From the NCBI GenBank assembly GCA_001799195.1, contig MGSU01000303.1, forward strand, positions 21,332 to 27,896: a stretch of 6,565 nucleotides of DNA. The letters are read 5' to 3'. The DNA is from Deltaproteobacteria bacterium RIFOXYA12_FULL_61_11 (GTDB taxonomy: Bacteria; Bdellovibrionota_F; JAHFAK01; YA12-FULL-61-11). Below are positions 1-5,808 of the stretch, one piece after another (positions within the stretch are counted from its first letter, which is position 1; every line of letters starts with the position of its first letter). The notes under the pieces were generated by a model that did no database searches, was not told where the DNA came from, and saw only the letters and a program-made list of their open reading frames with translations. The position numbers and the translations under genes are program-made.

Positions 1-743
1 CCATTCGAGGAGTACGCCTCGAGGGCTGCCGACGCATATTTCGAAATGCTGCTGCGGTGCAGGTCGAAGGTAGTGATCAAGTCCACCATCCAGGCCGGCA
101 CGCGGGACGAGTAACACTTGAGTTCTAGGATCAGGCCGGCCGAAGGGTCGCGGTTAACCACCGGATCGTAGCTTGCAAGCTCTTCGAGCCGCGTTGAAAA
201 ATCACTCTCCTCGCACCGTCGGTACCGCAAGCCCTGGTCGAAGGTCACCCTGGCATAGTCGTCGACCGTACTCACGTAGGCTTTGCGCGAATATTGGACC
301 AAGACCTTGGGTTCCAGGGCGAAGGTGTGGAAGAGGGTTTCGAAGGTAGAAACCGGCCCGTTCTTCTGCTCCAGTTCTTGCCGCTCTGTACCGACGAGCC
401 AGGGGAGCCAGTCTTCTACCTCCACACATTGTCTCGATTTGTACATCACATTGCTGACCTTGCGCTTGACCTCGAGGAAGAAGGGGGGCCGGTAGGTAGA
501 ACCATAGACCCGGACCCTGGCATTGAAGCGGTCCGGTGCATTGTTCAAGCGAAGGTGCAACAGCCTGAAAAGAGGGGTGTCGAGATACAAGCTGGTGATA
601 AGATAGGCCCCATCGGGACTGGCCGTACTATGTTCGTCGGGAACACAATACGGAGCGAGGAAGGCCTCAAGTTCACCCTGGAGAGAGAGGGGTAGGAGGT
701 ACTTCAATTCATGGCGCTCGTAGAGAGAGGTGAACCGGCTCAT
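1..743 (-). CDS. VTC-domain polyphosphate polymerase, 3' end outside window
   Basis: My own translation gives 247 open codons from the ATG at 743 to the window edge, with no stop. VTC enzymes polymerise the gamma-phosphate of ATP into polyphosphate in a tunnel-shaped domain lined with basic residues. The visible hallmarks match that family in order: YERHELKYLL near the N-terminus (K14), SLYLDT (51-56), RVRVY (76-80), FLEVKRK (89-95), YKSR (101-104), YSRKAY (151-156), RVTFD (165-169), ELK (207-209) and SKY (234-236). By eye these correspond to the Vtc4 catalytic Lys/Arg set and the metal-binding Glu. No SPX domain precedes the catalytic domain and no signal peptide is seen, so a cytoplasmic domain is expected. 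The start overlaps the TolC-like gene's stop in an ATGA. No clear Shine-Dalgarno lies upstream, so translation probably depends on coupling. At 247 residues it must be close to complete, since the final conserved Lys is present. Confident on family; activity is untested. Confidence 0.92.
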   Translation of the reverse strand, partial: MSRFTSLYERHELKYLLPLSLQGELEAFLAPYCVPDEHSTASPDGAYLITSLYLDTPLFRLLHLRLNNAPDRFNARVRVYGSTYRPPFFLEVKRKVSNVMYKSRQCVEVEDWLPWLVGTERQELEQKNGPVSTFETLFHTFALEPKVLVQYSRKAYVSTVDDYARVTFDQGLRYRRCEESDFSTRLEELASYDPVVNRDPSAGLILELKCYSSRVPAWMVDLITTFDLHRSSISKYASAALEAYSSN

Positions 744-1981
744 GGACGTGCACCGCGGGCCAAGAGGTTGCGCAGTGGAAGCCGGGCCAAATGGCCGAGC
801 TTCTCGAGCAAGGAGAGGTAGCGGGCGAGGATCTCGAAACGTTGTTCGATGAGACGGACCTTCTGTACGAGGGTCGCCCGTTTCAAGGTCAAGAGAACCG
901 CGGGATCAGTGCCCTCGGCTGCCTGATAGGTGGAATAGGCATTGGTGGCGCGACCACTACGGAAGGATTCCTGTAACAGGAGGTATTGATCGATGGAGCG
1001 TTGCAAGCCGATCCGCTCGCGCTGAACCTCCTTCGAGTAATTCCTTCGGGTCACGGTTTCGTCGAATTCCTTGTCCAGGTACTCGATCCAGCGGCGGCTT
1101 GCCTTCTCGCCGTTGCCGCCGACGAGGGGTAAACGCACCGAGAGGGAGAGTGAGACGGCAGCCCCCAGGTCCTCGTGGTCCTGACTATCGTACTGGAGCT
1201 GGAAGAAGGAGAGGAAGTCGCGATCGCTTGCCAACTCGTAACGGTAGGAGGCCTGGGCCTCGGCAGAACGCAGAGTGGCCAGGGCCAGGCGGGGCGGTAC
1301 CCTCGAAACATCAGCCGACAGGTCGTGGAGGTTGGCGCTGAGGTCTTCGACCTCGAGGAGGAGGCTTTCGTCGAGGTCGAGGGTTTCTCCCGCGGGGAGG
1401 TATTCGCGGAGTTGGACCAGGAGCTCCTCCTTGCGCAAGGTCTGCCGGTGGTGATCGAGCCGAGCTTTATTGAGATCGCTCTCGGCCTCGATCAGGTCGG
1501 TGACCCGGGCGTTGTCATCCAACCGGAGCAGTTGTTCGAAGAGCGTGGTCCGGTCCTGCTCCAGAACGACGAGTTCCCCATAGAGGGAGGTCAAACGCTC
1601 GGTTTCGAGAACGTCCAGAGCAAGCAGGTAGCGCTCGTGCAGAGCGCGCAGGAACAAGGTATCGCGTTCGACGGACAGGACCTTGCGCTCATTGGAGAGC
1701 AAGTCTTTGTAAGCAGAGGCCTCTCCCCAGCCTTTGGGATAGAAGCGGAGAGCATAGCGTTGCCGTGAGAGTTCAAAACGATCGGTTTCGCTGCGGACCT
1801 CGACCTTTTCCAGGGGGCCGCCGGGTTCGAGGGTGGCGAGACTGGACTCGACCCTGCGATGGTGGTCGAGCAGGGGGTCGTTCTGGGCTCCGGTCACGAA
1901 GGCTTCCAGAGTCACGGCCTTGACCGGGACAGGGATCCAGCAACACCAGAGCAGGAGAACGAGAGACACGTCGCGGCTCAT
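740..1981 (-). CDS. TolC-like outer-membrane channel protein
   Basis: The product is 413 residues. The N-terminus (MSRDVSLVLLLWCCWIPVPVKA) is a Sec signal peptide. The rest is mostly long, charged amphipathic helices, broken twice by a strand-rich segment leading into a helix: about 61-90 (ending RFYPKGWGEASAY) and about 250-290 (ending VRLPLVGGNGEKASRR). This twofold strand/helix pattern is that of TolC/OEP proteins, whose trimers form an outer-membrane barrel and a periplasmic helical tunnel. Sequence similarity to a particular subfamily is weak, so the call rests on architecture and on the adaptor gene directly upstream. I chose the ATG at 1981 rather than the longer open frame back to 2209, because it gives a signal peptide, has AGGAGG ten bases upstream, and overlaps the adaptor stop in an ATGA. 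The extra 76 codons overlap the adaptor gene out of frame. The stop overlaps the VTC start in a second ATGA. It probably acts with the adaptor; the substrate is unknown. Confidence 0.8.
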   Translation of the reverse strand: MSRDVSLVLLLWCCWIPVPVKAVTLEAFVTGAQNDPLLDHHRRVESSLATLEPGGPLEKVEVRSETDRFELSRQRYALRFYPKGWGEASAYKDLLSNERKVLSVERDTLFLRALHERYLLALDVLETERLTSLYGELVVLEQDRTTLFEQLLRLDDNARVTDLIEAESDLNKARLDHHRQTLRKEELLVQLREYLPAGETLDLDESLLLEVEDLSANLHDLSADVSRVPPRLALATLRSAEAQASYRYELASDRDFLSFFQLQYDSQDHEDLGAAVSLSLSVRLPLVGGNGEKASRRWIEYLDKEFDETVTRRNYSKEVQRERIGLQRSIDQYLLLQESFRSGRATNAYSTYQAAEGTDPAVLLTLKRATLVQKVRLIEQRFEILARYLSLLEKLGHLARLPLRNLLARGARP

Positions 1982-3135
1982 CGAAGGGTTGCCTCCTCTG
2001 GTGGGTGGGATTCGGGGGCTGAGCGGGGTTCTCGGGAAGCATCGGTATCGGCGAACAGGGACTCGGGGTTCTGCCGTTCCCCCCGGACCTGCAGCAGAGA
2101 ATCGAGGAGTTGTTGCAGGGAGCGGGGATGATCGAGCGTGATGGAAACCTTCTCGCCGAGGACGAAACTCGTGTTCCTGGGGAGCTTGAGCACCACTTCG
2201 CGGCCCCACAGGCGAAGGTCCACGTGTCGGCAGAGTCGTTCGGGGACCTCGACGATACGGCTACCGACACCGACCACGCTGGCAGGGCTCATGGAGTTCG
2301 AACCACCGAGAGAACGGATCACGGCCTCCTGGCCGACCCTGACCGCGAAGCGTTGTTTTTCGACTACGTAACCCTTGATGAAGGAGGGCGTCTGGGCCGA
2401 GAAGGTCAGGATCGGTGCAAAGGGAGAGAGGCGTTCGCCCGGCTTCACGTGCACGGTACTCACGATACCGTCGAGCGGTGCAACCACGCGCAAGTTGCCG
2501 TTCTCGGTTTCGAGGTTGCGCAGTTCTTCGTTGAGCTTGTCGAGCTGCAGGTCGAAGGGTTGGACTACGGCCCGGCGTTGACGTTCCAGGGTCGCCCTCC
2601 GCGTTTTACTCTTCTCGGTGTCGAACCTCAGCGATTCCTCGAGTTGTCGGCGCTTGAGGGCCAGCGGGCTGAGCGTGGACTCGGTGGCAGGCTCGGCCGG
2701 GTCGGCTTGCAAGCTGGGCAGGGTTGCCGAGAGTTGCCGGTTCAGCTCAGCTCGGTTCTCCAAGGTGGCCAATTCGTGCAGGAGGCCTGAACGTTGCGCC
2801 TCGCTTTCGGCGCGGAGCTGCAGGAGTTCGGCTTCAACCCGCTCCATGGCGTCGTTGCGCTGAGCGGCAACACCGTCGAGGTTCAACCGGAGCTGCCGGA
2901 TGCGGAGGGCGAGGTCGGGATTGTTGAGTTCCAGCAGGAGTTGGCCCTGATATACGCTCTGCCCCTCGACCGCATGGAGGCGCACGATCTCCACCGAGGT
3001 TTCACGGGTGATAACCAGTTCCCCGCTCTCGGCAATGCCATAAAACGAGGCCGACTGCAGGTTCGAAGCCAGGGCCAGGGTCAGTACGGCCAGCAAGCAC
3101 GCAACCCACAAAAGGTGGAGCACGTAGCGTTTCAT
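1978..3135 (-). CDS. HlyD-family membrane-fusion (periplasmic adaptor) protein
   Basis: The product is 385 residues. One N-terminal membrane segment (about 5-23) is followed by the first half of a lipoyl-like domain (about 38-75, with HAVEGQSVYQGQLLLEL). A long helical hairpin follows (about 76-210, rich in Leu, Glu, Arg and Gln). Then come the second lipoyl half (about 213-245, RVVAPLDGIVSTVHVKPGE) and a beta-barrel domain (SFIKGYVVEKQRFAVRVGQEA, about 251-275 onward). This order is diagnostic of HlyD/RND-type adaptors that bridge an inner-membrane component to a TolC-type channel. The last 35 or so residues are a polar Pro/Glu/Ser-rich tail that looks disordered. The start at 3135 overlaps the CotH stop in an ATGA and has GAGG seven bases upstream; the stop overlaps the TolC-like start in another ATGA. 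No ABC, RND or MFS pump gene is visible in the window, so the inner-membrane partner is unknown. Family call is firm; the transported substrate is not known. Confidence 0.9.
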   Translation of the reverse strand: MKRYVLHLLWVACLLAVLTLALASNLQSASFYGIAESGELVITRETSVEIVRLHAVEGQSVYQGQLLLELNNPDLALRIRQLRLNLDGVAAQRNDAMERVEAELLQLRAESEAQRSGLLHELATLENRAELNRQLSATLPSLQADPAEPATESTLSPLALKRRQLEESLRFDTEKSKTRRATLERQRRAVVQPFDLQLDKLNEELRNLETENGNLRVVAPLDGIVSTVHVKPGERLSPFAPILTFSAQTPSFIKGYVVEKQRFAVRVGQEAVIRSLGGSNSMSPASVVGVGSRIVEVPERLCRHVDLRLWGREVVLKLPRNTSFVLGEKVSITLDHPRSLQQLLDSLLQVRGERQNPESLFADTDASREPRSAPESHPPEEATLR

Positions 3136-5009
3136 GGCAGCACCTCGGAGGATCCCGGGGTAGTAGCTGCAGGGCTGTCGGTCCCGCCGAGGAAATCGAG
3201 GGCGGCGGCACGACGGGAGGTCAGGTGCTCGACCAGGGCCTCGACCGAGGTATCGAAGGAGGTTTCGTCCTGGAGCAAGCTCATGCCCGAGGACTCGCCC
3301 TCGGGTCCCGTCACATGCGGCGCAATGAGGTCGTGCAAGGTCCGGAGGCGTTGCTCGAGGGCCTTGGGTTCTGGTAGGGTTTTGACCGCTTCGGCGACCA
3401 GTTCGACATAGCGGGCGTAGTAGTCCGGATCGTCGAGCAGGAAGCGGATGAGCGGCCAGTCGGAACCGACCGTGCCGTGGGAGAATTCGACCGAGGAACG
3501 GGCCATGCCTCCTGACATCAGCGCCATGTTGTTGTCCCAGGGAAGCCAGTGCAGGAGGTCATCCCCGGGGTCGTGGTAGAGGTAGAAGTTGTGGGCCATG
3601 CTCCCGTAGGTGTCCCAGTTGACGAGCAAAGTATTGACCGCCAGCCAGCGAAGGAAGTCGTCGACGTCGAAGACGATTTCCAGGTCGTGCCGCCAAGCCG
3701 CTCGATCCGAGGAGTCGTCGTTCAAGGCGGTTACCAGGGCCTCGATATCGCGGTAGTCGGCTTCTTTCGTGTTGTTCTCTTTGTCGAAACTCTCCTCGGC
3801 GAAGCAAGAGAAGGTAGCACAATTGCCGCTCGGTTTGTACAGGTTCCCACCTTCTTCGAGGAATTGCGCCCGCAGCATGGGGCCGTCCGGGAGCTCGACC
3901 GCGGTGTAGAGGCCGAGATACTCGGGGCCGTCACCGTGATCCACGACGACTCGGTAGAACGCTGTCCTCGCCGCGGGAACCCCGGCTTCGCGGAACAGGT
4001 CGGCCGTGACCTTCTCGCGAAGGTAACTGTCGTCGCTCCAGTTATTGGCGAAACTCAGCTCGTCGAAACCATAGAAGCGTTGGTTCTTCACCTCCTCGAC
4101 GTCGTTCTCGAAGTGATCCAGGTCGAGCCGGAACCCCAGCTTGAGCGAACCCTGGCTCCAACTCGAGGCCAGGGAAGAGTTACCCTTGTAGCGAAAACCG
4201 ACATGCTCCCAGGTCTTGCCGGCGTAACGCAGGGTGCAGGACTGCCAGATCGGGTTACGTGAAGCCATTTCAAGATTACCGGGTCCACCACGAACTTCTC
4301 CTCCGGCACCTTCGAGATGTGACCCCTCCGGTGGTTGATCGCCGCTGAGGTCTCCCCATGCAGGTGGGGCACCACCGGGAATGCCCCCTTGTTCCGTACG
4401 GACGACAAAGGCATCCTCGCTCGCGTCTCCCGGTAGAATCGGGGGGAACCCCATCCCCCCTCCGAAACCTTGGGGTGGCCGGACATCTCCGGACACGTCC
4501 CGGCCCGAACCTGGTTGGAAGGTAGCGAGGTCCGGACTGCAGAAGAGGTCTTCGCCCTGGGCTATGCAGGTTCCCTTGAGAGTCTCTTCGCCGAGATCGA
4601 TCGTGCAAGCGGCATCGACCGTGGCGCCTGCGCAGGCGGCAAGGGCCTCGACCGGAGCTATCATTCCGACCTGGATGCGTCCTGGTACTGCTCCACCGGG
4701 GGGTGGGTTCGCGCCCATTGCGGCCTGGTCCACTCCGGGACCGGTGAAGGTTCCGGGGTCCCCGTAGAGTTCGGTCATATCCTCTTGCAGCGTCTTCCAG
4801 GCCGAGGAGGAGAAGCGCAGCTCGAGGGTATGGACCACGCCCTCCGCGAAGACCACGGCGTAGTCGGCCGAAGCGTCATTGCCGTGGCTTGCTTCGGACC
4901 AGCCTCGAGGCAGGTCGTCCTTCTCGCAGCCCGGGAGGAACCACGCGAGCAAGGCCAAGAGCAACGGCCAGCAGGTTCTCGGTAAAAGGATAGTGCGTTG
5001 ATGGGTCAC
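3132..5009 (-). CDS. CotH kinase-fold family lipoprotein with large N-terminal insertion
   Basis: The product is 625 residues, longer than typical CotH proteins. A signal peptide ends in the lipobox LPGC (Cys28), so the protein is probably lipid-anchored. CotH proteins are atypical kinases first known from spore coats (CotH phosphorylates CotB and CotG). Family motifs appear in order: a strand pair with AWKTL (about 50-80), FRYKGNSS (272-279), SLKLGFRLDLD (288-298), ELSFANNWSDDSYLREKV (317-334), LYTAVELPDG (367-376), GGNLYKP (387-393), DVDDFLRWLAVNTLLVNWD (448-466), HNFYLYHDP (473-481) and LPWDNN (489-494), the likely metal-binding Asp/Asn site. Residues about 83-250 are an extra segment that splits the N-terminal strands from the core. 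The start is GTG at 5009, chosen because it gives the full signal peptide and has a strong AGGGGAGG about ten bases upstream. It follows the small lipoprotein gene by 82 bases and is coupled to the adaptor gene by an ATGA overlap. Kinase activity and target are inferred from family only. Confidence 0.92.
   Translation of the reverse strand: MTHQRTILLPRTCWPLLLALLAWFLPGCEKDDLPRGWSEASHGNDASADYAVVFAEGVVHTLELRFSSSAWKTLQEDMTELYGDPGTFTGPGVDQAAMGANPPPGGAVPGRIQVGMIAPVEALAACAGATVDAACTIDLGEETLKGTCIAQGEDLFCSPDLATFQPGSGRDVSGDVRPPQGFGGGMGFPPILPGDASEDAFVVRTEQGGIPGGAPPAWGDLSGDQPPEGSHLEGAGGEVRGGPGNLEMASRNPIWQSCTLRYAGKTWEHVGFRYKGNSSLASSWSQGSLKLGFRLDLDHFENDVEEVKNQRFYGFDELSFANNWSDDSYLREKVTADLFREAGVPAARTAFYRVVVDHGDGPEYLGLYTAVELPDGPMLRAQFLEEGGNLYKPSGNCATFSCFAEESFDKENNTKEADYRDIEALVTALNDDSSDRAAWRHDLEIVFDVDDFLRWLAVNTLLVNWDTYGSMAHNFYLYHDPGDDLLHWLPWDNNMALMSGGMARSSVEFSHGTVGSDWPLIRFLLDDPDYYARYVELVAEAVKTLPEPKALEQRLRTLHDLIAPHVTGPEGESSGMSLLQDETSFDTSVEALVEHLTSRRAAALDFLGGTDSPAATTPGSSEVLP
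4260..4763 (-). other. Insertion region in the CotH protein: four-Cys module plus Gly/Pro-rich linker
   Basis: Residues about 83-250 of the CotH protein do not belong to the usual fold. They begin with a Gly/Pro-rich stretch (83-110). A compact module with four cysteines follows (C126, C135, C148, C157, spaced 9, 13 and 9; core pattern AC-x8-CT-x8-KGTC-x8-C). After it comes a long Gly/Pro/Asp-rich stretch of low complexity (about 165-247). Short four-Cys patterns of this sort occur in various exported proteins and probably form two disulfides; that comparison is from memory. The flanking CotH strands resume at WQSCTLRYAGKTW. The role is unknown; a surface-exposed extension or binding module is the simplest guess. 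Confidence 0.7.
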
Positions 5010-5091: not shown

Positions 5092-5808
5092 TCAGCGACC
5101 CTGACGCAGCCTCACCTGTCGACCCTGTTCGAGTTGCTGGGTCGTCGGCTCGCTCAGCTCCTCGAGGGCGTACGGACACGTTCCGGTGCCAGTACCGTGC
5201 ATGGAACGCCGCCCCTTGCCCATACCGGCTCCGGCCATATTCCTGCCTCCTTGGGGCTCGCGGCCGCAAGCTGCTGGAGCTTCCAGTTCATCGGATCGGG
5301 GTTCCCGATGCTCGGCCATGCGCAGCTCGTGTTCCTCGAGCACGCTCTGCACCAGGGCTTGGAGGTCGCAACTCTCGGCTTCGAGACAGGCGGCGAGTTG
5401 CTGCCAAGGGGAGACCGGGGTCCCACCCTGGATTTCTCCGGAGCTGTTGTGGCGGGGTCCGCCCCTCCGGTGCGTACCGCACGGAGGGAAGGCGGCGGCA
5501 TCGTCCGTAGCTTCGACGAGTTCACCGGCCGCTTCCATGCTCGCGGCGAGCTGGGCCCGGAGCAGGGCCTCGAGGTCACAGGTTTCGTCTTCCAGACAGG
5601 CTTCCAACGCGGAGCGATGGTTCTCTACCAGGGCCGAGAGCTCGGCGTCGGCTTCGGAGGACTCGACCTCGGTGAGTACCTCGTCCGTGGTGGCATCGCC
5701 CTCCTCTTGGCTCTTGTACCCGAGTTGGCCGTCGGGAACAGGGGTGTCGGGGGAGCATCCTTGGACCAGACTTGCACTGATGAAGAGGAATGAAAGCACG
5801 TACCGCAT
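5092..5808 (-). CDS. Cys-rich lipoprotein with an internal duplication; family not recognised
   Basis: The product is 238 residues. MRYVLSFLFISASLVQGC is a short signal peptide with a lipobox-like end (Cys18), so the mature protein is probably a lipoprotein. An acidic, disordered-looking stretch (19-60) follows. A unit then occurs twice: residues 70-111 and 140-182, both with the pattern ACLExE[TS]CDLxAL and then, 33-34 residues after the second Cys, CG followed by basic residues and a GG pair. The repeat period is 70 residues. The C-terminal part (187-211) is rich in Gly, Arg, Met, His and Thr and holds one more Cys (211). I do not recognise a known family. The ATG at 5808 was chosen because it begins the signal peptide and has AGGAG seven bases upstream. 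An in-frame ATG at 5904 with its own GGAG would add 32 residues ahead of the signal peptide and is less likely. The gene sits just upstream of the CotH gene, so it may be a partner or substrate of it; that is inference. Confidence 0.8.
   Translation of the reverse strand: MRYVLSFLFISASLVQGCSPDTPVPDGQLGYKSQEEGDATTDEVLTEVESSEADAELSALVENHRSALEACLEDETCDLEALLRAQLAASMEAAGELVEATDDAAAFPPCGTHRRGGPRHNSSGEIQGGTPVSPWQQLAACLEAESCDLQALVQSVLEEHELRMAEHREPRSDELEAPAACGREPQGGRNMAGAGMGKGRRSMHGTGTGTCPYALEELSEPTTQQLEQGRQVRLRQGR
5263..5391 (-). repeat. Lipoprotein internal repeat, copy 2
   Basis: This encodes residues 140-182 of the lipoprotein, with cysteines 141, 147 and 181. It matches copy 1 in the ACLExE[TS]CDLxAL block, then again at CG and the following GG pair. 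The middle differs (EHELRMAEHREPR) but has nearly the same length, consistent with an old duplication rather than a recent one. Confidence 0.75.
5476..5601 (-). repeat. Lipoprotein internal repeat, copy 1
   Basis: This encodes residues 70-111 of the lipoprotein, with cysteines 71, 77 and 110. It starts with a predicted helix (ACLEDETCDLEALLRAQL) and ends at PPCG, followed by a basic, Gly-rich tail. Copy 2 lies 70 residues further on with the same three cysteines. Confidence 0.75.

Follow-up and report, generated by a model that had tools for sequence, protein, structure and literature searches.

Cellulose, alginate and Pel are exported by synthase-dependent systems, in which synthesis of the exopolysaccharide is coupled to its passage across the envelope. 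We know of no machine that has been assigned to the export of bacterial polyphosphate. A 2023 review only speculated on a secretion channel for this polymer, and in yeast polyphosphate is made on the cytosolic side and then passes one membrane (PMC10657179). Genes for a CotH protein, a polyphosphate polymerase and DUF4956 have been described as accessory genes beside Gram-positive pel clusters, where the only role given is that of a suggested kinase (PMC7112168), and a Clostridium perfringens locus carries CotH with polyphosphate polymerase genes (PMC11677781). In a literature search that mostly did not reach subscription journals, we found nothing joining CotH, VTC and DUF4956 with HlyD or TolC, nor a tested role for bacterial VTC or DUF4956. 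The grouping of CotH, VTC and DUF4956 is already known, and what is new at the locus described here is a candidate dedicated trans-envelope duct.

The locus was analysed in a window of 6,565 nucleotides (contig MGSU01000303.1, positions 21332-27896) from the draft genome (4.6 Mb, 87% complete) of Deltaproteobacteria bacterium RIFOXYA12_FULL_61_11. Our results favor a model in which its core genes encode a trans-envelope machine that couples cytosolic polyphosphate synthesis to polymerisation-driven export, with CotH as an optional component; we put the probability of this reading at roughly 55%.

Table 1. Features of the locus (window positions unless marked as contig positions).
Feature	Position	Strand	Details
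VTC-type polyphosphate polymerase domain, predicted cytosolic	3..743	(-)	261 aa in full; PF09359 9e-36
TolC-type outer-membrane channel, 413 aa	740..1981	(-)	predicted fold
HlyD/EmrA-like periplasmic adaptor, 385 aa	1978..3135	(-)	PF16576 4.7e-10, PF13437 9.6e-9
CotH-family kinase, probable lipoprotein, optional accessory	3132..5009	(-)	PF08757 2.9e-64
Small putative lipoprotein (LVQGC)	5092..5808	(-)	sequence reading of ORF 5958-5092
DUF4382-like protein, truncated by contig end	6006..6563	(-)	PF14321 4.1e-5, slightly below cut-off
DUF4956 membrane protein, outside window	contig 20538-21224		PF16316 1.2e-13

The original prediction described a unit of four genes, for a CotH kinase, an HlyD adaptor, a TolC-like channel and a VTC polymerase, joined by three consecutive ATGA overlaps. 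The genes do lie head to tail, on the minus strand. Their positions and identities hold, by Pfam for three of the genes and by predicted fold for the TolC-like channel, and each junction does read ATGA (3132-3135 for CotH/HlyD, 1978-1981 for HlyD/TolC and 740-743 for TolC/VTC). The genes are real, but the window does not span the whole unit. The last 14 VTC codons fall beyond window base 1, and the next gene, about 107 bases past that base, encodes the DUF4956 protein, which had been overlooked; it is followed by a GT2 gene and then by a gene for a large SLBB/Wza-like protein. The overlaps had also been read as implying fixed stoichiometry, a reading that we reject because they vary across relatives: ATGA-type junctions were found at 24 of 78 HlyD/TolC and 11 of 83 TolC/VTC boundaries, and at one of three CotH/HlyD boundaries, that of the window itself. 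The ATGA overlaps are not a conserved mark of the unit.

VTC and CotH were each found once in the source genome, where they neighbor each other. The genome also has at least three Omp85 matches, evidence of an outer membrane. The unit lies among polysaccharide genes, without phosphate genes in its neighborhood; nearby ORFs, identified mostly by eye from the sequence, are GT2, SLBB, flippase-like and O-antigen-ligase-like. A polysaccharide export protein of very large size, in which a Poly_export domain is accompanied by eight SLBB stretches, is encoded at L003 (215-3445, minus strand, partly N-masked). In the small putative lipoprotein encoded just upstream of CotH, a Cys-containing motif (ACLExExCDLxAL) occurs twice, and no Pfam family scored meaningfully against the protein. 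Its gene is separated from CotH by 82 bases and is possibly on the same transcript, and its product is a possible CotH substrate or chaperone.

The VTC protein scored 124 bits against PF09359 (curated cut-off 23), and in a profile search of the PDB it matched Vtc4 (3g3q, 1.6e-10) and Vtc2/3 structures and nothing else. Its residues R76, R78, E91, K93, R153, R165, E207, K209, S234 and K235 align with Vtc4 residues that we take to be catalytic, and the aligned VTC/Vtc4 motif pairs are HRLRWYG/ARVRVYG, VERK/LEVK, VLEVK/ILELK and FSK/ISK. The Vtc4-type active-site residues are invariant in eight relatives, which is consistent with an enzyme that would make polyphosphate from ATP.

The TolC-like protein of the window had no Pfam match, OEP included, and a PDB sequence search with its profile matched no solved structure. 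When its AlphaFold model (pLDDT 86) was compared with known structures by Foldseek, E. coli TolC was the best match (1.8e-12), with OprM (1.2e-10), CusC and CmeC among the other top folds; structure prediction confirmed a TolC-type fold. A more distant homologue of the channel, in locus L084, is a plain OEP protein (PF02321, 1.6e-15). Given the absence of a Pfam OEP match to the window protein, surveys by family name would miss such proteins.

DUF4956 is the likely inner-membrane part of the system. A model built from 27 relatives, with a moderate pLDDT of 76, predicts an ACT-like ferredoxin domain preceded by five long helices. The PDB matches to this model, which include the C-terminal domain of Mycobacterium tuberculosis MgtC, are restricted to the C-terminal ACT-like domain and leave the membrane part unmatched, and at this model confidence the Vtc1 membrane bundle was not among them. 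Pfam also gave a weak match to MgtC. By helix count, the invariant stretches FxGLSYS and RFRxxxKD lie in or next to loops on the side of the ACT-like domain, where they may together make up a basic entry point for a polyanion.

The adaptor exceeds the cut-offs of PF16576 and PF13437 and matches TIGR00998 at 2.3e-14, under that model's cut-off; sequence reading suggests one N-terminal membrane helix. In a tree of 53 adaptors, in which long branches are present, the window protein lies inside a clade of 36 VTC-linked adaptors with support of 100/99 and a long stem. Excluded from this clade are the two other source-genome adaptors that could be placed in the tree, as well as distant, non-VTC adaptors from Fibrobacter loci. 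The adaptor of L084 and most adaptors from loci without a TolC-like gene also fall outside it, suggesting that adaptors may have been recruited to VTC more than once, of which the long branches leave us unsure. At several loci (L072, L073, L076-L079 and L082), a second, diverged HlyD-type adaptor adjoins VTC-DUF4956 with no TolC-like gene. Pairwise distances among the four core proteins correlated at 0.79-0.94, as would be expected of co-inherited partners. No ABC, RND or MFS inner-membrane pump gene lies between the core genes for DUF4956, adaptor, channel and VTC in the loci examined; the pump-like genes that flank some loci (L113, L153 and Fibrobacter) are separate from the unit and not conserved.

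DUF4956, adaptor, TolC-like channel and VTC occur together in 68 of 80 related VTC loci, a proportion that is not a frequency because these loci were picked by similarity to the VTC of adaptor-linked loci and are mostly from Fibrobacter. The core is present in Desulfobacterota, Bdellovibrionota, Nitrospirota, Gammaproteobacteria and Fibrobacterota, mostly in one of two orders, HlyD-TolC-VTC-DUF4956 or DUF4956-HlyD-TolC-VTC. A search for conserved CotH-HlyD-TolC-VTC synteny, as the original prediction had proposed, showed that this order is not confined to one genome, so that the single-genome refutation foreseen there failed: with DUF4956 following VTC, it recurs exactly in Desulfobacterium (L105) and Desulfoluna limicola (L107). 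The source phylum is represented by two genomes in the comparison collection, and the relatives compared belong to more distant groups. In L121 and nearly all of the Fibrobacter loci (among L119-L184), VTC is followed by a gene for a lamin-tail-domain protein.

A less biased sample of 386 genomes, with VTC in 37 and CotH in 57, gave 39 VTC loci. DUF4956, a near-constant partner of bacterial VTC genes, adjoins VTC or lies close by in nearly every one of these, and CotH is near VTC in about half. An HlyD-type adaptor adjoins VTC in 17 loci from 11 families. All 17 are in Omp85-bearing genomes, and the five VTC genomes that are Omp85-negative have no such adaptor, in what is a small sample with related rows. 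More than half of the 39 loci have no adaptor, which suggests that VTC-DUF4956 can work without a duct.

The window's CotH aligned to the CotH structure 5jd9 (1.8e-11), with the motifs NWD...HNFYLYH...PWDNN matching NFD...HNYALYH...PWDYD. The active-site aspartates are present, and those of the NWD and PWD motifs are presumably catalytic. A lipobox-like LPGC near the N-terminus makes the protein a probable lipoprotein. CotH lies beside the four-gene core in the source genome, two Desulfobacterota, genome G036 (L084), one Fibrobacteres (L121) and one more locus, and it was not seen there in Bdellovibrio, Nitrospirales, Methylococcales or most Fibrobacter among the loci examined. With so few occurrences, CotH is an optional accessory, a putative secreted kinase. 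At L108, the slot that CotH occupies elsewhere, directly upstream of HlyD-TolC-VTC-DUF4956, is taken by a gene (2837-4780) whose secreted product carries PPDK_N, an ATP-binding phosphotransferase domain.

Some relatives place the system in a phosphate context. In a Nitrospirales locus (L115, 7550-13014), what looks like a complete Pst operon for phosphate uptake, PhoU included, comes directly after VTC, and in a Thiotrichaceae locus (L144) VTC is followed by genes for the phosphate transporter PiT and for a phytase-like protein (10514-12031). Two further gammaproteobacterial loci have phytase-like proteins after VTC (L126, 8815-10476; L169, 6636-8288); in all three, the phytase-like gene sits one or two genes past VTC. 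PPK1 was not found in the source genome (87% complete) or in 12 of 16 other adaptor-carrying genomes tested (13 of 17 with the source genome included). It does occur in three relatives, and its carriers include Bdellovibrio and a Methylococcales; the system is thus not simply a PPK1 substitute.

In the proposed machine, VTC would polymerise phosphate from ATP in the cytosol, as its homology suggests, and the growing chain would thread across the inner membrane by way of a DUF4956 channel, with the basic loops presumably facing the enzyme. The adaptor would bridge DUF4956 to the channel of predicted TolC-type fold, creating a closed duct across periplasm and outer membrane. Polymerisation would be the driving force, replacing an ABC, RND or MFS pump, and CotH would work outside the cell or in the periplasm as an optional secreted kinase. 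There is good evidence that the core genes encode one machine, and indirect evidence that polyphosphate is its cargo. Counting against the proposal are the resemblance of DUF4956 to MgtC, the many VTC loci with no adaptor, the PPK1 genes of three relatives and the polysaccharide rather than phosphate genes around the unit in the source genome. The dedicated envelope machine first suggested for making or moving polyphosphate is thus upheld at the level of the system by cross-phylum conservation, the adaptor clade and the phosphate neighbors in some relatives. A fuller version, in which synthesis acts as the pump of a tripartite exporter and surface polyphosphate serves as a scaffold, a phosphate store or a phosphate donor for CotH, is tentative and more doubtful than not; the donor role is raised by the fact that a secreted CotH would otherwise be without ATP outside the cell.

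Other explanations share parts of this evidence. VTC and DUF4956 could deliver polyphosphate to the periplasm only, with the adaptor and channel exporting another cargo, such as a CotH-phosphorylated protein or a polysaccharide. The many VTC-DUF4956 pairs without an adaptor fit such a division of labor, as do the GT2 and large SLBB/Wza-like export genes after DUF4956 in the source genome and the position of cotH, polyphosphate polymerase and DUF4956 beside Gram-positive pel polysaccharide genes (PMC7112168). However, it is the adaptor and channel that track VTC and DUF4956 across phyla, whereas CotH and polysaccharide genes do not, and we consider this explanation unlikely. We judge it rather unlikely, too, that the VTC domain makes or cleaves another phosphate compound while the system transports some other anionic polymer or uses an MgtC-like DUF4956 to sense phosphate. 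The tunnel fold is not unique to polymerases, being common to triphosphatases and cyclases, and the weak MgtC match and ACT-like domain of DUF4956 would suit a sensor, but the residues aligned with Vtc4 are kept in VTC, including the C-terminal SK pair.

A very improbable alternative is that the adaptor and channel work in ordinary efflux with a pump encoded elsewhere, and adjoin VTC by chance or for regulation. Adaptors can be shared, and the source genome has further HlyD and OEP genes; nevertheless, one adaptor clade persists beside VTC in many phyla and across two gene orders, which argues that these are not chance neighbors. On the adaptor tree we reject a chance association with an efflux pair.

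The preferred reading, polymerisation-driven export of polyphosphate, would if true describe a tripartite duct in which a polymerase, not a pump, supplies the drive. The unit recurs across very different groups and may be the missing route of bacterial polyphosphate to the cell exterior. It is a concrete exporter candidate that is present in cultured bacteria (Bdellovibrio, Fibrobacter and Desulfoluna).

The polymerase domain of the unit is homologous to that of the yeast VTC complex (Vtc1, Vtc3 and Vtc4), and the active-site residues of the two align. However, the VTC of the unit has no fused membrane domain, for which DUF4956 is the likely membrane partner, and a periplasmic adaptor and an outer-membrane channel are added. 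The Gram-positive pel-linked genes likewise place CotH, polymerase and DUF4956 side by side, although no adaptor or channel is named there (PMC7112168). With type I secretion and tripartite efflux systems (HlyD-TolC, EmrAB-TolC and MacAB-TolC) the unit shares an HlyD-type adaptor and a TolC-type channel, but it includes no ABC, RND or MFS pump, and VTC and DUF4956 stand where the pump would be. Finally, the coupling of synthesis to envelope export that we propose is also the principle of synthase-dependent exopolysaccharide export, from which the unit differs in its enzyme, its polymer and its outer-membrane part.
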